Shown here in pieces: positions 53,816-61,617 of a DNA stretch of 64,000 nt (position 1 is the stretch's first letter; every line of letters starts with the position of its first letter). Origin of the DNA: Psychroflexus maritimus (GTDB taxonomy: Bacteria; Bacteroidota; Bacteroidia; Flavobacteriales; Flavobacteriaceae). The stretch spans positions 58,191-122,190 of the forward strand of contig NZ_JAANAS010000072.1 of NCBI RefSeq assembly GCF_011089875.1, given 5' to 3'. The notes under the pieces are model-generated. The model saw only the letters and a program-made list of their open reading frames with translations. It was not told where the DNA came from and searched no databases. A program made the position numbers and the translations under genes.

Positions 53816-56800
53816 TTAACTATTTTTTTCAAATAACAATTCTGGCAGAACAATTTTGACTTCATGTGCTAAACCTTCTTTCGTCCAATGAAGAATAAAA
53901 TTCACTTTCACGCTTTTTAAAATATAATTCTTCCCTTTTAAGCTCTCAATTTTTTCTAAGAAATGCTTTGAAAACTTTAAAACTGATTGTCCACTTAGGT
54001 TTAAACATTCATCATCCTTAAAAGTTAAGCTATCACCACTTGAAAGTTGAGAAATCCAATGCTGTCTGTGTATGAAGTAATCAAGCCAAACATCTTTGTG
54101 GGTCAAATGCATTGCCATTTCTTTTGGAGGTAAGTAATTTTCATTATCGTTAATTCGCTCTAAATTTTCTTCGGAAAGATGATCAAGAAAACTTGAATTA
54201 AGATGGACTGTTAAATTCTGTTTTGCTCTCGTCATTGCAACATATAATTGCCTTTTATCGCTATCGGATACTAAATTGAAATTATCAAGCATCAAGAAAA
54301 CATTATCAAACTCTTTGCCTTTTGCTTTATGAATAGTAGATACAAAAATGGTTTCCCCATTTTCACTAAAAAAGTCTTCAAGTTTAGACTCGCGAATAAA
54401 AGCTTCCAAATCTGATTTGTATTTCTTTTTGGGATTAGTTGCTTCAAAATCCTTGATGATGTTTTTACATAGCTCTAACTTTGTACTATTTAGAAATCTA
54501 TTTAATAATTCTCGCTTTGCACTTATCCAAACTTCGTCACTAATTATAAACACATCATTAGTTAAATTCAGTTGATTTAAGAAGAACCTAACTTCCAAAA
54601 GATTATACAAATTGAATCCTTGATTGGTCTGAATCAATTTTGCTTGCATACCGTTGTTTAGTAAAAGACCTGTGATTTGCAAAGCTTCTTCATTCGTTTT
54701 TGTAAGCACACAAGTAGTTCCCGAAAGTCCTGTTGTGAGTATATCTTGAACAAGTGGACTAATGAGATTTTGGCTTTGATAACGAACCAATTTTATTCTC
54801 CCGTCATCAATTTGATTTGCAATAATTGGTGTTTGTTTTAGTCGTTGATGTATGCTTCTTACAAATTGATTGTTAAACTCAACAAGATTACGTTTACTTC
54901 TATAGTTTTCAACCAATTCATACTTTATGGCTCTTTTTGATTGAATAAACTTTTCAAGGTATTTTGAACTTGCTCCTCTAAATTCATAAATATTCTGGTC
55001 ATCATCACCTACCGCGATAACTCTCATTTCTTCGTTTTGTTCCATTAAGGTAATGATGAGATTGAACTCATCTTCATCCATGTCTTGTGCTTCGTCAATT
55101 ACCAAAACTGTTTTTGTAATTCTATTTGGTTCAACTTCTTTGTTTTTTATTTTTTCAATTGTTTTTTTAAGAATCTCACCTGACTTTTCCAAGTTACCAA
55201 CCTTTCCCAACAAATCAAAACAATAAGAATGAAAGGTTTTTATTTCAATATAGTTAGCGGCATTTCCAATCAATTTTAGCAATCGTTTTTTGAATTCTGT
55301 TGCTGCTGCTCTCGAAAAAGTAACCATTAGTAATTGCTCGTGTTTTACATCTTCCATCAAAAGCAATGAGGCAAGCTTGTGAACCAATACCCTTGTTTTT
55401 CCGCTTCCGGGCCCTGCAGCTACAACAATATATTTTGTTTCATTGTCGTTTATGATTTTCAATTGCGTTGGTGAAAGTTCACCAAAAAGCTGTCTAAATT
55501 TGGTTGGAGTCATTTTAAGTTTAAGGTCATCAACTTTACTCCCTGGGAAGTATTTCCTTAGAAACGAAGAATAATTTAATTGGAAATAGTCTTCAGCAAA
55601 TTGAAGCGCATCTTTGTAATCGTTTATCATTTTTTTGGCATACTCGCCAACGATATGAATTTGTTGAATCTTGTTTTCGTAAAATTCATTCAGCTTTTGA
55701 TAATCTTGCTTTGTATATCGTTTATAATTGTCTTCTTCAAGCCTTTCAATAGTTAGTCGATTATAAACTACCAAAAAACCACCCTCTATTTTAAGCGCTT
55801 CAATCCTTGAAAGATAAAAAAGTGTATCTTCTATATCATCGATGCTAATATCAAGTTTGAATAGGTTTTGATTAGATTCGTATTCAGCTTTTAATTCGTG
55901 AACTGAAAACTCAACTAATACTTCTTCTTTTTGACTTTCATTTTTATCTTCATTCAAATCACTTTTCTTATGAAGGAATTCGATAATGAATTTCGCCAAG
56001 ACGTGACGCTTCTCAAGTTTTTCTTTAAGTATTTTTTTTGGATGAAGTGAAATAGCAACAATATGGTTTTTAGAGTATTGAATATTTTGCCGCTTTATCC
56101 AATGCTTAATTGCCCAAAAATTGATGATTGTTTTAATTTTGTTAGGCGAAACATCATTGCAACCTTGTTCATCGGCTTGTTCGTTCAGTTCTTTGATGTG
56201 GACTGTTTTTTCCTGCTCTTCAAAAATGGGTAAAAGAAAGTTTTCAATCTTTGCAAATGACTCAACGATATTTAGAGAACGATTTTTGTTTTCACCCTTC
56301 TTGATGAAGGCAGTTAAATCTTTTGCATCAGCCAAAATATTTTCTTCACGTAAAAGGTTGACAATGTTTATTACTTCTTCTTTCACAATCCCTAGGTGGT
56401 CGCTGATGTAGTCAACTCTTGATTCAGCAGGATCTTCGACTGACTGATTTTTGCTTTTGCTGGAGAAAAGCTTCTTTATGATTCGGATACCTTTTTCTTT
56501 TTGCTTCTCTTCAAATCGCTCAGAAAGATTGATTTTTTCAATGGCTTCTTGCGCATTTTTAGAAAGGATGCTATTTGCAAAAATTCTAGGCATATTCTGC
56601 CCTCGTATTAGATATCCTGCTTCTTCTAAAGCTGCAATAGCGGTTGTTACCCGGGTTTCAATTTCAACTACATTATCGTCCCAACCTGCTTTTCTAGCAA
56701 TTTCTAAAGCTGAGTTGGATACTTTTGAACGGAATTTGGTGATATACTTAATCGCCTTCCAAATCTGCTGAATCTCTTTAATAGAAAGCTTGGTTTGATT

Positions 56801-58639
56801 CAATAGAATAAAATGTTTGCTTAGGTCTTCTTCATTAAATAGCACAAAGCAATCAGCAACAATATTTTCGTCCCTGCCCGCCCTTCCTGCTTCCTGGATA
56901 TAGTTTTCAAGTGAATCAGAAATTTCATAATGAATCACCATACCTACATCTTTTTTATCAACTCCCATTCCAAAAGCCGAGGTCGCTACCATAATTTGTG
57001 TTTCACCATTGATAAAGGCATCTTGATTTTCTGACTTTTCTTGCTTATCCATTTTCCCATGGTATGGTTTTGCATTAAAGCCATCCTTGGTTAATCGCTC
57101 TGAAAGCAAATAAGCTTTTCTCGTTCTAGAAACATAAATTATTGCTGGGCAATTCTTTTCTTCAATTAAATCCCTTACTGCTTGATATTTTTCTTCTTCA
57201 TCACCTTTTTCAAAAACTTTGTATTGAAGATTTGTCCTTGATGCAGTTGATGTATAGAGTTCTAGGTCAAGCGATAACTTTTCTTTGAAGTAACTACGAA
57301 TATCCTCTATAACTTTCTGTTTTGCAGTTGCTGTAAAACAGGAAACAGGAATTCCATCCTCAAGATTTTTCTTCTGCTGAAGTTGTTTTATGAAATCTCC
57401 AATATATAAGTAGTCAACTCTAAAATCTTGACCCCATGATGAAAAACAATGTGCTTCGTCAATAACAAAGCGTACAATTTTTCTACCTAAAATTAGACGT
57501 TCAATGGTTTTTGAACGTAGTGATTCGGGTGAGATATAAAGAATAGTTGCTGAACCATCATTTACACGTTCAAAAGACTTGGCGCGCTCGATGGGGTCGA
57601 GTAATCCATTAATAGTTACTGCTTCTGTAATACCGTTGCTTTCGAGATTATCAACTTGGTCTTTCATCAGAGACTGCAGAGGTGAAATCACAACAGTCAG
57701 ACCCTTAGCCGCTTCACCACTCATTAATGCAGGAACTTGAAAGGTAATAGACTTACCTCCACCCGTGGGAAAAACAGCAAGGATCGATTTGTTATCTACT
57801 GCTGCTTTTACTGCTTTTTCTTGAAGTGGCTCACCTCCATATGTTCTATAAGAATCGAAACCAAAAAACTTTTTTAACCCTTTATTGATATCTAAGACAC
57901 TGTTACAATATGCACAACCTGTAACACATGGTTGATTTCGTAAACGAAACATGATTCTTTCAACTTCAGGATAATTTTTTAGTACCCAAGGCGGTGTTAT
58001 AGAATGAATTTTTTTGTATTCAATAAAGGAACTTATTAGTGATAAACAATAAGCCAACTCAATTGGATTCTCCGAAATCATTTTGTTAAGGACAACCTGA
58101 TCACAAATTTCATTTACAAACTTTTGGCGAATCAGCTTTATTACGTCTGTATTTTCACTTTTATACGCTATGAAACGGAAAAAAGATTGAAACTCTCTTT
58201 TATTATGCAACAGTAAAAAGAAAATTTGTTTGAGTGTTTCGTCAGTTTTCTTAAAGGCTTCAACTTCATCATAGAACAGGTCTCTTGATTTAATAGAATC
58301 ATTTAGCGGATTGTTAGTGTATTCTGTTTGAAGCTTATCGTCTTTTAATAAGGCATGATAGGGTTTTGTTGGAAAAAGTAAGGGAGAAAGAAATAAGGTG
58401 TCAATGATTTTTGAAGAGCTTATTCCTGCATCTGCGAGCGCTTTACCGACATACTTTATATCATGATTGAAAATGTTGTGTCCACATATAAATTGTGTTC
58501 CTTTTAAAAACTGTGTAAATTCAGTAATTGATGTTTTATGAAATATATTTCCGTCAGCTTTTATGCAACCAATATCCAGAATCTTTAGGCTCTTTGGTTC
58601 AATTTCGGTATCTATAAATGCTATTGGCTTCATAATCAA
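53816..58639 (-). CDS. Fused DEDDh exonuclease, RecQ-like and UvrD-like helicase (1607 residues)
   Basis: A very large nucleic-acid enzyme. Residues 1-130 form a DnaQ-like 3'-5' exonuclease with the DEDDh set Asp10, Glu12, Asp60, His95 and Asp100. A Cys cluster (Cys238, 242, 245) follows. The RecQ-like SF2 helicase (about 265-690) has Walker A PTGGGKS, DEAH at 394-397 and QEAGRAGRD near 582-590. A linker with winged-helix-like parts leads to a UvrD-like SF1 helicase (about 1045-1500) with Walker A GPGSGKT (1076-1082), DEAQ (1182-1185), GDDDQNIYEFRGA and motif VI VAMTRAKQN. It overlaps the methyltransferase-HIT gene by 4 bases (ATGA). It is the last gene of a three-gene set with an HNH protein. 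A defence or repair role is inferred from content. Confidence 0.9.
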   Translation of the reverse strand: MIMKPIAFIDTEIEPKSLKILDIGCIKADGNIFHKTSITEFTQFLKGTQFICGHNIFNHDIKYVGKALADAGISSSKIIDTLFLSPLLFPTKPYHALLKDDKLQTEYTNNPLNDSIKSRDLFYDEVEAFKKTDETLKQIFFLLLHNKREFQSFFRFIAYKSENTDVIKLIRQKFVNEICDQVVLNKMISENPIELAYCLSLISSFIEYKKIHSITPPWVLKNYPEVERIMFRLRNQPCVTGCAYCNSVLDINKGLKKFFGFDSYRTYGGEPLQEKAVKAAVDNKSILAVFPTGGGKSITFQVPALMSGEAAKGLTVVISPLQSLMKDQVDNLESNGITEAVTINGLLDPIERAKSFERVNDGSATILYISPESLRSKTIERLILGRKIVRFVIDEAHCFSSWGQDFRVDYLYIGDFIKQLQQKKNLEDGIPVSCFTATAKQKVIEDIRSYFKEKLSLDLELYTSTASRTNLQYKVFEKGDEEEKYQAVRDLIEEKNCPAIIYVSRTRKAYLLSERLTKDGFNAKPYHGKMDKQEKSENQDAFINGETQIMVATSAFGMGVDKKDVGMVIHYEISDSLENYIQEAGRAGRDENIVADCFVLFNEEDLSKHFILLNQTKLSIKEIQQIWKAIKYITKFRSKVSNSALEIARKAGWDDNVVEIETRVTTAIAALEEAGYLIRGQNMPRIFANSILSKNAQEAIEKINLSERFEEKQKEKGIRIIKKLFSSKSKNQSVEDPAESRVDYISDHLGIVKEEVINIVNLLREENILADAKDLTAFIKKGENKNRSLNIVESFAKIENFLLPIFEEQEKTVHIKELNEQADEQGCNDVSPNKIKTIINFWAIKHWIKRQNIQYSKNHIVAISLHPKKILKEKLEKRHVLAKFIIEFLHKKSDLNEDKNESQKEEVLVEFSVHELKAEYESNQNLFKLDISIDDIEDTLFYLSRIEALKIEGGFLVVYNRLTIERLEEDNYKRYTKQDYQKLNEFYENKIQQIHIVGEYAKKMINDYKDALQFAEDYFQLNYSSFLRKYFPGSKVDDLKLKMTPTKFRQLFGELSPTQLKIINDNETKYIVVAAGPGSGKTRVLVHKLASLLLMEDVKHEQLLMVTFSRAAATEFKKRLLKLIGNAANYIEIKTFHSYCFDLLGKVGNLEKSGEILKKTIEKIKNKEVEPNRITKTVLVIDEAQDMDEDEFNLIITLMEQNEEMRVIAVGDDDQNIYEFRGASSKYLEKFIQSKRAIKYELVENYRSKRNLVEFNNQFVRSIHQRLKQTPIIANQIDDGRIKLVRYQSQNLISPLVQDILTTGLSGTTCVLTKTNEEALQITGLLLNNGMQAKLIQTNQGFNLYNLLEVRFFLNQLNLTNDVFIISDEVWISAKRELLNRFLNSTKLELCKNIIKDFEATNPKKKYKSDLEAFIRESKLEDFFSENGETIFVSTIHKAKGKEFDNVFLMLDNFNLVSDSDKRQLYVAMTRAKQNLTVHLNSSFLDHLSEENLERINDNENYLPPKEMAMHLTHKDVWLDYFIHRQHWISQLSSGDSLTFKDDECLNLSGQSVLKFSKHFLEKIESLKGKNYILKSVKVNFILHWTKEGLAHEVKIVLPELLFEKNS

Positions 58640-59490
58640 TACTTCTGTTTACTTGGAATCACCCCCCTTACCCCACCTCTAGGATTTTCAACATCACCTT
58701 TATAACGAGGAATAATGTGAATATGACAATGAAAAACAGTTTGTCCAGCTTCTTGGTTTACGTTAATTCCAATATTGAATCCGTCAGGATTATATTTTTT
58801 TTGTAATTCAGCTTTAACTAAATTCACCAAAAACCAACAAGCAGATTGTTCTTTAAAACTCAACTCAAAATAATTAGCAACTTTTCTTTTAGGAATGATT
58901 AATGTATGCCCGTTTGAAACAGGAAATTTATCACGGAAGGCAAAACAACTTGCCAATTCACCTACTTGTTCTTTGGGTTCTAACTTTTCAAAAAATGGAC
59001 TTACTTCAGTTTTCTTTTGATTAAGATAGCAATAGTGTTGGTATTCATAAATTTCCACATTTTCATTTACAAAAACTGTTTTAAACGGAAGAATTACGTT
59101 GGTTTGATAGGTTTTTACTTTATGTATATAGTGCGTTCTAAAACCCGGTTTTTTAATATCACAACGTACACTAAAATAAGCTCTACCACCAAATTTTAAA
59201 AGCTTAGATACTTCAAACAGAACTTTTGCTTGCTCTTGGTTTTTAAGCACATTTAATACATAATGACATAAAATAGTATCGTATTTTTGATTTGGGTAAT
59301 CGGGTTGATAATGAGGGTCATAACCTTTTACATTAAAGCCTTTTTGTTTTAATTCTTCTACATCTTTCCCAAAGCCACAACCAAAATCTAAAACATCCCC
59401 CTGTAATAAGTCATTTTCAACTAAAATACGTGTTGGAAAGGACATTTTATCTCTATCTTTTGCAGTAATATGTGAGTTTATATTTTCCAT
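58636..59490 (-). CDS. Methyltransferase-HIT fusion protein
   Basis: A 284-residue two-domain protein. Residues about 20-135 are a class-I SAM-dependent methyltransferase with motif I VLDFGCGFG (33-41) and an acidic GYDPH at the end of strand 2. Residues about 165-275 are a HIT nucleotide hydrolase/transferase with the triad HCHIHII (His254, 256, 258) and GHTLIIPKRKVANYFEL. The methyl target could be DNA, RNA, a nucleotide or a small molecule. HIT proteins cleave AMP or similar groups from adducts, including DNA-5'-AMP in aprataxin. Start 1 base past the HNH stop and a 4-base overlap with the helicase gene mark a tight operon. Annotated fusions of this kind exist, but I know no settled function. 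Confidence 0.88.
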   Translation of the reverse strand: MENINSHITAKDRDKMSFPTRILVENDLLQGDVLDFGCGFGKDVEELKQKGFNVKGYDPHYQPDYPNQKYDTILCHYVLNVLKNQEQAKVLFEVSKLLKFGGRAYFSVRCDIKKPGFRTHYIHKVKTYQTNVILPFKTVFVNENVEIYEYQHYCYLNQKKTEVSPFFEKLEPKEQVGELASCFAFRDKFPVSNGHTLIIPKRKVANYFELSFKEQSACWFLVNLVKAELQKKYNPDGFNIGINVNQEAGQTVFHCHIHIIPRYKGDVENPRGGVRGVIPSKQKY

Positions 59491-59491
59491 A

Positions 59492-60526
59492 TTATTCTAA
59501 AAATTGAAAACCATTATTGCTAGCCACAGAAATTTGTGGTTCAATGGTTTCCTTAAGTTTTTGATAATCAAAGTCTTTTGCTGAGTTGTACGATTTAAAA
59601 ACAGTAATATATTCCTCACGAAATCTTTTTTTCAACCTATTACCCAATAAATTTAAAGCATCATTTTGGATGTTAAAAAAATCATTGAAATGTTTATCAA
59701 TAATTGGTAATTTGTTGTTTTTTGAATTGTTAAACTCAGATAATATGGGGACTAAATTCCAAATTAAATCATGAGACACCCATGAATACGGAACAAAATG
59801 GTCTAATTGATAGTTTGAGACATTCAACTTTTCATTCGTAAAAATACATCTTACATCATTCCTTTCATTGAGATAAATATTCCAAAAATTATTCCTTTGA
59901 TAAGTCAAAGCATTTCTTTTGGCAGGTTTAATGAGTTTGTTTAGAATGTCAGGAATTAGTGGGTTTCTACTTTGTAAAAAAATAGCAAGATTCCAATACG
60001 TAAAATCTTTTAATACTTTACTGTTTCTTTGGATGTAATCAAACCAATTATTGTTTACAACAATTTCTTTTTTGTAAAGTTGATAAATACTAGTGTTGCT
60101 GTCTTTTTGTGATTTTTCATAAACTTCACCTTTGCTTCCTTTTAACCATGGACTTAAAAATTTATGAGGAACATTTTTGTCGAGATGAAATAACATTTTC
60201 CTTGTTGAAAGATCATTCGAACTATTAATTAAGGTAAAAACCCTATTTTTATCATCATTTAATTTAACCGGTAAAATATTAGCTAACTCTGAAATTATCT
60301 CAGCTATTTTATCTTGACTACCGAATGATAGCTTGAAGAAATTGATTGGGAACCATGCATTAGAAATCATTCTTGCAAATAAATTCTCTTTCATTATTTG
60401 TTGATTACCTAACTCAACTTCGTCAATAATTGCCAAAAACCAATAAAACTTATAGGTTGCTGATGTATAATTAAAAACACTAGCTAAAATCTGATTGTTG
60501 ATATGAGATGAAAAAGGTAAATTCAT
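59492..60526 (-). CDS. HNH-type endonuclease domain protein
   Basis: A 344-residue protein, first gene of the set. The C-terminal third holds the nuclease motif: LDHFVPYSWV with Asp242-His243, then WNLVPILSEFNNSKNNKLP with Asn257 and Asn267 of the HNH/beta-beta-alpha-metal core. Ahead of it is DVRCIFTNEKL, where the usual second Cys of a zinc pair is Thr, so a structural zinc may be lost. Residues 1-200 are helical and not recognised; they may bind DNA or partners. A -7 promoter box lies 45 bases upstream. Such HNH proteins often occur in defence islands; the target here is unknown. Confidence 0.8.
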   Translation of the reverse strand: MNLPFSSHINNQILASVFNYTSATYKFYWFLAIIDEVELGNQQIMKENLFARMISNAWFPINFFKLSFGSQDKIAEIISELANILPVKLNDDKNRVFTLINSSNDLSTRKMLFHLDKNVPHKFLSPWLKGSKGEVYEKSQKDSNTSIYQLYKKEIVVNNNWFDYIQRNSKVLKDFTYWNLAIFLQSRNPLIPDILNKLIKPAKRNALTYQRNNFWNIYLNERNDVRCIFTNEKLNVSNYQLDHFVPYSWVSHDLIWNLVPILSEFNNSKNNKLPIIDKHFNDFFNIQNDALNLLGNRLKKRFREEYITVFKSYNSAKDFDYQKLKETIEPQISVASNNGFQFLE

Positions 60527-60570: not shown

Positions 60571-60578
60571 CAAACTTA
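60571..60578 (-). promoter_or_regulatory. Promoter of the HNH-methyltransferase/HIT-helicase operon
   Basis: On the minus strand TAAGTTTG matches TAnnTTTG, with a TTG at 60601-60603 22 bases upstream as a plausible -33. It lies 45 bases before the HNH start and suggests the three genes are expressed as one unit. Confidence 0.55.
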
Positions 60579-60626: not shown

Positions 60627-61064
60627 CTACCCTCTAGACCTAATGATATGCTGATAATAAAAAGCAGGAAGCAACAAAATAATAAACAAAGGCTGAATTA
60701 AAAAGCGCCTTACATAAAAAGTAGCAAAGTAGTAATCCGATTGAAAATCATGAATTAAAAAAGCAAGGGCGCTAATTAATAACACAAAAGCCAGAGCGTA
60801 AAAAAACAAAGCAAATTTAAGTACGCTTTTCTTCAAGAAAAAAAGGTAGAGTATAAGCAAACTAATAAAAGTATGGGTTAAAAAGCGTAAGCTAATAACA
60901 CCTAAGGTTGAGAAATAAGAAAAATCGGGTACGGGTTTTTGGTAGTAATTGCCTTTGTAAAAATCCATAAACACCTCGTAAAACCAATCATGTTCAAAAA
61001 AACGAATCACAATAAACGCCACAAAAAGCAGGAAAATGAGTGAATACCTCAGTTTTTTATTCAT
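60627..61064 (-). CDS. Exosortase F-associated membrane protein
   Basis: A 145-residue inner-membrane protein with four hydrophobic helices (about 8-22, 50-75, 80-103 and 117-138). It starts MNKKLRYSLIFLLFVAFIVIRFFEHDWFYEVFMDFYKGNYYQ-like; the FEHDWFYEVFMDF segment and overall plan match the XrtF-associated family, which is found only beside exosortase F. It overlaps xrtF by 8 bases. It probably stabilises or assists the exosortase in sorting C-terminally tagged proteins to the surface. No tagged substrate protein was spotted in the window. Confidence 0.82.
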   Translation of the reverse strand: MNKKLRYSLIFLLFVAFIVIRFFEHDWFYEVFMDFYKGNYYQKPVPDFSYFSTLGVISLRFLTHTFISLLILYLFFLKKSVLKFALFFYALAFVLLISALAFLIHDFQSDYYFATFYVRRFLIQPLFIILLLPAFYYQHIIRSRG

Positions 61065-61617
61065 TTGTTTCTGGCTTTTTAAAATTGCGCACCCAAATCA
61101 CCCATAGTAAAAAAACCACTCCGTAAATAAACGTAGGAAAAAGTGTTCCATGCATAAACTCAGTATGCTGTGGATAATGACAAATACCAATGGTTATCAA
61201 GGCAATACGGATAATATTCAGCGTATAAATAATCACACTTCCGGCAAAAATATACAACAAGGTTTGCTTCCAGGTTTTCTTAAACGCCAAAATAAACGAA
61301 AGAAACAAAATAATCACACTTACTGCATTGCAACCTTCTACCACGCGCACCATAATTTCGCCACTAATCCCAATTAGCATGGCAGGACTTTCAAGACTTT
61401 TGGTAAGCAAGGTATCATAACCTAAAAAAGCAATGATTTGCTCGCTTTGCAAAGCCACAATATGCGTAATAAATTCAGGGTAAAACACACTTGATTGCCC
61501 TAGGCTTAAATACAATTCGTACACCAAAGCTAAAAGGATATAACTTCCAAAAAAGGTGAGTAAAAACCAAATTACAGCTTTGTTTTTTTGAATAAATGAA
61601 AGACTAGCTTCTTGCAT
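61057..61617 (-). CDS. xrtF: Exosortase XrtF
   Basis: A 186-residue inner-membrane cysteine transpeptidase of the exosortase/archaeosortase family. The catalytic residues are in place: Cys96 in VVEGCNAVS, Arg137 in NIIRIAL and His156 in FMHGTLFPTF. Helices before and after match the eight-helix family core, and the length is typical of XrtF. It has its own -7 box at 61638-61645 and is followed by its partner gene with an 8-base overlap. Exosortases process proteins with a C-terminal PEP-CTERM-like tail during export; the substrates here are not seen. Confidence 0.88.
   Translation of the reverse strand: MQEASLSFIQKNKAVIWFLLTFFGSYILLALVYELYLSLGQSSVFYPEFITHIVALQSEQIIAFLGYDTLLTKSLESPAMLIGISGEIMVRVVEGCNAVSVIILFLSFILAFKKTWKQTLLYIFAGSVIIYTLNIIRIALITIGICHYPQHTEFMHGTLFPTFIYGVVFLLWVIWVRNFKKPETNE

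Follow-up and report, generated by a model that had tools for sequence, protein, structure and literature searches.

An HNH nuclease and a methyltransferase-HIT fusion as a conserved two-gene unit apparently related to phosphorothioate defence loci

Phosphorothioate (PT) systems of the Ssp and Dnd types and the nucleases that neighbour them are treated in the accessible portions of PMC10853773 and PMC12839542, and they are the closest described relatives of the locus reported here. We analysed a 64,000-nucleotide stretch of Psychroflexus maritimus (contig NZ_JAANAS010000072.1, positions 58,191 to 122,190; hereafter the window), in which a sequence-only reading had picked out three adjacent minus-strand genes, encoding an HNH nuclease, a methyltransferase (MT)-HIT fusion (MT-HIT) and an exonuclease-helicase fusion, as an operon perhaps serving host defence or specialised DNA repair. 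The conserved unit is two genes, HNH and MT-HIT, which are common to several bacterial phyla, and judged by sequence the pair is apparently related to PT (DNA-sulfur) defence loci. In the window the two genes are separated by a single base and comprise the following features.

59492-60526, minus strand: HNH endonuclease of 344 amino acids (aa), an open reading frame (ORF), first gene of the conserved pair
59705-59848, minus strand: HNH core, about residues 227-274, within the HNH gene
58636-59490, minus strand: MT-HIT fusion of 284 aa, an ORF, second gene of the conserved pair
59230-59481, minus strand: S-adenosylmethionine (SAM)-dependent methyltransferase domain of MT-HIT, the segment that aligns with TIGR04096
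58699-58977, minus strand: HIT domain of MT-HIT, H254-x-H256-x-H258, PF01230

MT-HIT was searched in 60 related genomes, 27 of them from the window's genus, and all copies fell within those 27 (13 full-length, one partial in genome G004 and one truncated by the end of its contig in G002; G and L numbers are our labels for genomes and loci), while the remaining genomes of the 60 gave HIT or MT pieces alone, or no match. Fourteen regions around the genus copies were fetched besides that of the window. An MT-HIT alignment run against GTDB contigs was confirmed at 157 places, of which the best 80 were taken, 33 non-cyanobacterial (12 of these in genomes already among the 60) and 47 cyanobacterial; relatives covering nearly the whole query came from Bacteroidota, Ignavibacteria, Kapaibacteria, Chlorobi and Cyanobacteria. 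Among these best 80 of 157, an HNH gene stood immediately upstream of MT-HIT in 32 of the 33 non-cyanobacterial loci, at spacings of -49 to +9 bases by longest-ORF starts; the sole exception (L042) has a truncated MT-HIT, and the upstream HNH of L034 is a remnant. From the nuclease side, an HNH profile (A3, 31 rows: 16 from MT-HIT pairs, 4 from HIT pairs and 11 others) matched 36 of 395 Bacteroidota genomes, and 16 of the 30 loci fetched had an adjacent MT-HIT and 5 a stand-alone HIT (one divergent), a survey biased to paired HNHs because 20 of the 31 profile rows come from MT-HIT- or HIT-paired nucleases. HNH with a stand-alone HIT was also present on four plasmids examined (Polaromonas, Hymenobacter, Aromatoleum and Persicobacter), and three other plasmid HITs had no HNH neighbour by profile. 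Since HNH pairs with HIT alone as well as with MT-HIT, HIT is the common partner and MT an addition.

Nine hand-picked neighbours from six sister loci were scanned with PADLOC: three matched strongly (mREase_IV, which is a methyl-directed restriction enzyme of type IV; DdmD; Cas9), three weakly (JetC, LmuB, PglW) and three not at all. The DdmD-like protein (PADLOC E 1e-51) adjoins HNH-MT-HIT in L019 (9025-14539), beside a 660-aa protein without a Pfam or PADLOC match. Of the defence or repair cassette first proposed, what stands is thus a nucleic-acid cassette of two genes, conserved in distant hosts as HNH with MT-HIT or with HIT and found near known defence genes in some sister species; the helicase is not part of it.

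The window HNH belongs to the HNH_4 family (PF13395, E 4.3e-10, 39.8 bits against a cut-off of 22), and its top sequence matches in the PDB are Cas9 HNH domains (E 3.8e-10). Residues T24, Y25, K26, H243, N257 and K269 are kept in 28/28 aligned relatives and N266 in 27/28, the invariant T24-Y25-K26 lying in a helical N-terminal region. Pfam gave no family above cut-off besides HNH_4 and no sulfur-binding or SRA domain. A Foldseek search of the whole structure model (predicted local distance difference test, pLDDT, 78.7) against the PDB returned nothing at E ≤ 0.001, the best match being Cas9 at 0.083, so the N-terminal part is without a recognised fold here. Three HNH types, A, B and C, were distinguished, and B and C share 18-25% identity with the window HNH. 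A phage homing endonuclease was considered and set aside, as the HNH matches just 1 of 50,697 phage records.

In MT-HIT, the HIT domain is assigned to PF01230 (E 2.7e-24, 86.1 bits against a cut-off of 21.5), and an intact HxHxH triad (H254, H256, H258) together with Fhit/HIT fold matches places it in the HIT superfamily; Fhit/HIT proteins are also the best PDB matches by Foldseek for the MT-HIT model (pLDDT 86.8). The MT part is a class-I methyltransferase (PF13489, E 8.3e-12), and the SAM-motif residues D35, G37, G39, G41 and D43 are kept in 52/52 MT-HIT rows. Residues 4-87 match TIGR04096 at E 5.4e-20 and 71.6 bits, below the cut-off of 150 for this 478-position profile, and by sequence the MT domain and this dnd-operon methyltransferase are related over part of their length. 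At residues 164-167, among the 22 of 52 rows printed, 11 genus rows read SPFF and 11 other rows CxxC, which suggests that a metal site has been lost in the genus MT-HITs.

The middle histidine of HxHxH is the HIT nucleophile. It is retained in 46/47 HNH-paired MT-HITs and present in 12/12 stand-alone HITs, all with an HHH triad, and it is lost in 47/47 solo cyanobacterial MT-HITs (HSH, HAH, HGH, HTH or HNH triads); the set includes one identical pair (L054 and L055), one entry whose HNH is a remnant (L016) and three that no HNH adjoins (L027, L111 and L113). An HHH triad is shared by L202 and the 44 MT-HITs that fall with HNH types A, B or C. The pattern suggests that HIT catalysis matters beside HNH. 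The cyanobacterial rows of alignment A5 retain the SAM motif, and the solo protein is perhaps a nucleotide-binding regulator. Among phages, 23 records matched MT-HIT, 22 of them through the HIT part and 1 through the MT part, with coverage below 80% in every case. Large plasmids and phages hold HITs close to that of MT-HIT (L027, 60%; phiSASD1, 48%); no HNH of the window's family stands beside the plasmid HITs L027 or L113, and a counter-defence role for such proteins is possible.

HNH relatives outside the pair point to a link between it and PT loci. Of 25 HNHs without MT-HIT or HIT, 9 had PT genes within 8 kb (DUF4007, SspC-like, PAPS reductase or DndB) and a further 5 an SspA-like cysteine desulfurase only; in such loci DUF4007 and an SspC-like gene may accompany a PAPS reductase or a desulfurase. 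An HNH match occurred in 17 plasmid records, and of 13 inspected 6 had PT-type genes, 6 had none and 1 was unannotated; on a Cyanobacterium plasmid (L142) DUF4007 is followed by two long genes, in a region with an SspC match, and the HNH stands between these genes and the PAPS reductase. The HNH profile also matched in 11/46 cyanobacterial genomes with a solo MT-HIT, and nine such regions divided into three with PT genes (L194, L195, L198), three with a desulfurase only (L197, L199, L200) and three with neither (L193, L196, L201). The pair itself lies amid incomplete PT genes in five loci.

L219: DUF4007, an SspC that breaks off at about residue 670 of a 1069-aa relative, followed by HNH-MT-HIT
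L226: DUF4007, HNH-MT-HIT
L224: about 60 residues left of DUF4007, HNH-MT-HIT, PAPS reductase
L225 and L220, which is nearly a copy of it: DUF4007 fragment of 112 aa, HNH-MT-HIT or its cut end
L045: lone PAPS reductase, HNH-MT-HIT

The PAPS reductase of L045 (386-aa ORF) looks whole, because whole relatives such as that of L224 also give two BLAST pieces.

Within the window's genus, DndC or DUF4007 was found in 0/15 MT-HIT carriers and 5/12 non-carriers (Fisher P = 0.0098, relatedness uncontrolled; 0/13 and P = 0.015 without two fragmentary carriers), and the window genome itself (G000) has no DUF4007 and no DndC match. Strict exclusion of PT systems by the pair would fit these genus data, but G450 is a counterexample, with an intact-looking DUF4007-SspC-PAPS reductase locus (L221) plus HNH-MT-HIT (L222). 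DndC above cut-off in 0/40 wider carriers is uninformative because the background itself is only 7/296. DUF4007 was, if anything, commoner in wider carriers (8/40 versus 17/296; 6/38 versus 17/296, P = 0.034, after removal of repeats, G367 and G782 sharing coordinates and L054 and L055, from G781 and G782, having identical MT-HITs), and in one of the eight (G786) the DUF4007-like gene sits in a separate large locus (L223). In cyanobacteria, DndC was present in 45/46 genomes with a solo MT-HIT, a figure that has no cyanobacterial background beside it and that cannot be read as a link to MT-HIT, the dnd clusters of Cyanobacteriales being reported as vertically inherited in the accessible part of PMC8569181. 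Five of seven cyanobacterial DndC regions (L228, L230, L231, L232, L234) carry a TIGR04096-like ORF of 482-545 aa near DndD and DndE; full TIGR04096 proteins were confirmed in L230 and L234, the two scanned, and in the Ssp-type locus L194. The window MT is about 35% identical to cyanobacterial dnd-operon methyltransferases.

The tree of HNHs is discordant with that of MT-HITs. The label MT-HIT has to change 7 times on the HNH tree, starred branches forcing 6 of these changes, and "MT-HIT or HIT" has to change 5 times, each of them forced; on the MT-HIT tree (94 rows, quick method), HNH types A, B and C are intermixed among close relatives. L162 (B) groups with L154 (A) (98, starred), L158 (B) with L152 (A) (95, starred), and L017 (B) and L016/L020 (C) fall within the clade of the window's genus (13 rows; 99, starred), where MT-HITs are 74-84% identical although preceded by HNHs of three types. 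Nuclease alleles have thus been swapped ahead of a conserved MT-HIT partner, and a partner that is retained while the HNH type varies more probably acts generically than through a sequence-specific mark.

Our leading reading, held tentatively and at slightly less than even confidence, is a stand-alone two-gene restriction or defence pair related to PT-locus nucleases, in which the HIT(-MT) partner would stand in for the PT machinery. Cleavage of invading DNA is the predicted task of the HNH enzyme. Its dedicated, closely spaced partner would be MT-HIT, or HIT alone, placed where PT genes stand for other HNHs of the family. By HIT catalysis on a nucleotide, or on a group resembling one, this partner would keep the nuclease safe for the host or turn it to the host's use, and the fused form would add a methylation step. 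Such a partner might act generically, on ends, nucleotides or nuclease products, and HIT might take as its substrate nucleoside phosphorothioates or else nucleotidyl groups at DNA ends, where aprataxin-like chemistry takes place. The bolder claim that MT-HIT replaced the whole PT machinery as HNH partner, yielding minimal two-gene immunity with generic HIT-dependent self-protection and exchanged nuclease alleles, we regard as doubtful.

The same loci could be read as PT-directed and type IV-like, with the HNH cutting PT-modified foreign DNA, HIT desulfurating nucleoside 5'-phosphorothioates and MT methylating the released sulfur. The 0/15 versus 5/12 distribution of PT genes in the genus and the five loci with incomplete PT genes agree with this, and human HINT1, a HIT enzyme, converts deoxyguanosine monophosphorothioate (dGMPS) to deoxyguanosine monophosphate (dGMP) with release of H2S (accessible part of PMC8775712); we nevertheless think it unlikely, as G450 combines an intact-looking PT locus with the pair, HNH relatives sit inside loci that combine DUF4007 and SspC-like genes with a PAPS reductase or a desulfurase, the HNH has no Pfam sulfur-binding or SRA domain, and DUF4007 is not depleted in the wider carriers. 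A toxin-antitoxin or abortive mode, in which the HNH would attack host DNA and MT-HIT would restrain it, by binding or by removing a nucleotide-type activation, until infection releases it, is one we consider distinctly unlikely: a binding antitoxin would be expected to co-evolve with its toxin, yet very different HNHs share closely related MT-HITs, and the HNH is the first gene and the MT-HIT SAM motif is fully conserved, even though the small size, close spacing and nuclease swapping of the pair would suit such a system and, in the accessible part of PMC8565338, the HIT protein ThsC is an accessory of some Thoeris systems proposed to act on a nucleotide signal.

Adjacent, jointly conserved nuclease and methyltransferase genes also recall classical restriction-modification (R-M), with MT marking host DNA, HNH cutting unmarked DNA and HIT as an accessory, but pairs with HIT alone do without a fused MT, the HNH type differs before closely related MTs, and the MT matches no DNA-methylase family, all of which makes this improbable. 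A three-gene system with the helicase as motor appears highly improbable, since its tight spacing in the window and in L026 is countered by 13 other genus regions in which the helicase was not found (two show less than 1 kb downstream) and by 11 other helicase loci, none with HNH, MT-HIT or HIT.

Several observations weigh against the two-gene restriction or defence reading itself. No HNH of the window's family is adjacent in the 47 cyanobacterial MT-HIT loci, some of whose contigs end nearby (L066 has a weak HNH match, E 4e-4, on the opposite strand), and 9 of the 30 HNH-profile loci had neither MT-HIT nor HIT. The HNH-paired MT-HIT of L155 has an HAH triad without the middle histidine and that of L219 a QHH triad without the first, and the histidine loss in solo cyanobacterial MT-HITs may be one ancient event because these form a single clade (96, starred). 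The MT has no DNA-methylase family match in the Pfam and NCBIfam scans, and the change of HNH type before closely related MT-HITs argues against a sequence-specific R-M pair. Eleven of the 25 unpartnered HNHs had no PT gene in view, the flank lengths differing. One contrast that favours the reading has limits: in the Bacteroidota survey, 3/3 unpartnered HNHs of at least 136 bits lie in PT-bearing genomes (at the locus in G582 and G422, on another contig in G176), and an intact-looking PT locus was present in 1/18 partnered genomes above the same score (P = 0.003, post hoc, partial hits on both sides set aside; 3/3 versus 1/21 with the partial matches L170, L173 and L174 counted), but this contrast depends on the cut, because six partial or distant unpartnered loci then drop out, and weakens to 3/18 versus 3/3 (P = 0.015, post hoc) when any DUF4007 is counted. 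Finally, the HNH tree of 75 rows comes with long-branch warnings.

If the two-gene reading is right, it would add a compact nuclease and HIT(-methyltransferase) module to bacterial immunity and assign a role to an as yet unnamed HNH nuclease of PT loci. It raises a testable question, whether a HIT enzyme can substitute for DNA-sulfur modification, and partner swapping together with the middle-histidine contrast provides sharp mutational predictions in a tiny two-gene system.

The remaining features of the window locus are the third ORF and a promoter candidate.

53816-58639, minus strand: putative exonuclease-RecQ-UvrD fusion of 1607 aa (1605 aa from the ATG at 58633), an ORF
60571-60578, minus strand: promoter candidate TAAGTTTG, of TAnnTTTG type, weak

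The three ORFs, the 1-base gap between the first two and the HNH, methyltransferase, HIT, RecQ and UvrD domains (the last supported, like the others, by Pfam and NCBIfam) are as the sequence-only reading described them. The 4-base overlap that it gave between MT-HIT and the helicase holds only for a TTG start; if translation begins at the in-frame ATG, at 58633, the two genes are 2 bases apart. Its promoter candidate has the TAnnTTTG form of Bacteroidota promoters and is present, but it is weak because this motif is common in the window (117 occurrences on both strands, 11 with TTG 18-22 bases upstream). The helicase carries RecQ (TIGR00614, 275.9 bits against a cut-off of 219.8) and UvrD (PF00580, PF13361) domains, with two Walker A motifs, DEAH and DEAQD. 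The exonuclease assigned to its N-terminus is plausible but unproven: D8, E10, D58, D78 and H93 are invariant among 8 homologues, which presumably follows DEDD motif logic, but Pfam gives no match there and the best PDB profile match has E 0.015.

As a member of a three-gene system, the helicase failed. It stands beside the pair in 2/15 genus carriers, the window and L026 (94.8% identical), within a comparison that covers the regions around MT-HIT copies rather than every genus genome, L014 and L022 being the two with less than 1 kb in view. Full-length helicases (E ≤ 1e-200) occur in 8/299 family genomes, the window's own counted, and plasmids of Bacteroides, Aliarcobacter and Sulfitobacter, among others, carry them too; none of the 11 other helicase loci examined, two of them from one genome, has a match to HNH, MT-HIT or HIT. 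The helicase is a probable passenger outside the conserved unit, and possibly a defence or repair factor in its own right. It occurs without the pair in L129, L130, L133 and L134; G285 has two helicase copies about 40 kb apart, and plasmid copies lie near ParAB or SSB genes. Directly upstream of the HNH gene, at 60627-61617, are the exosortase XrtF and its associated membrane protein (TIGR04128 and TIGR04127, above cut-offs), which are ordinary Flavobacteria genes.

No full match to any named anti-phage system was found in PADLOC-DB 2.0.0, where MT-HIT gave weak ThsC and mad2 matches, HNH weak Cas9 and PDC-M01B matches, and the helicase only helicase-domain matches (best 25 of 65). No described equivalent of the HNH and HIT pair was found in the literature searched, in which subscription journals and bioRxiv were thinly covered, and "HIT" as a whole word has 0 occurrences in the accessible text of PMC10853773; the suggestion that no described system has exactly this composition therefore stands for the sources searched. 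With Ssp/Dnd systems the locus shares HNHs of the same family near their genes, an MT relative (TIGR04096) in dnd operons and the pair in five incomplete PT loci, but the window and most carriers lack PT genes (none was found by Pfam and NCBIfam among 7 window proteins scanned around the locus), so that the window pair is not itself a PT system. The PT-system HNH singled out in the accessible text of PMC10853773 has a wHTH+SAD+HNH architecture unlike that of the window HNH, and the pair falls outside PT-dependent type IV restriction (wHTH/SBD, SAD and HNH) since HNH_4 alone exceeds the Pfam cut-off, as it does outside type II R-M, with no DNA-methylase family and an HNH type that varies before related MT-HITs. 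Thoeris with ThsC likewise places a HIT protein beside defence effectors (accessible part of PMC8565338), but the window pair matches no Thoeris protein except, weakly, ThsC (E 6e-7). The HNH shares with Cas9 the HNH_4 family and conserved catalytic residues, but it is only 344 aa long, with no other Cas9 domain detected by Pfam. TIGR04096 proteins share the N-terminal MT motif region with MT-HIT at about 35% identity, but at 486-728 aa here they continue in a long part past that region, where MT-HIT has its HIT domain instead.

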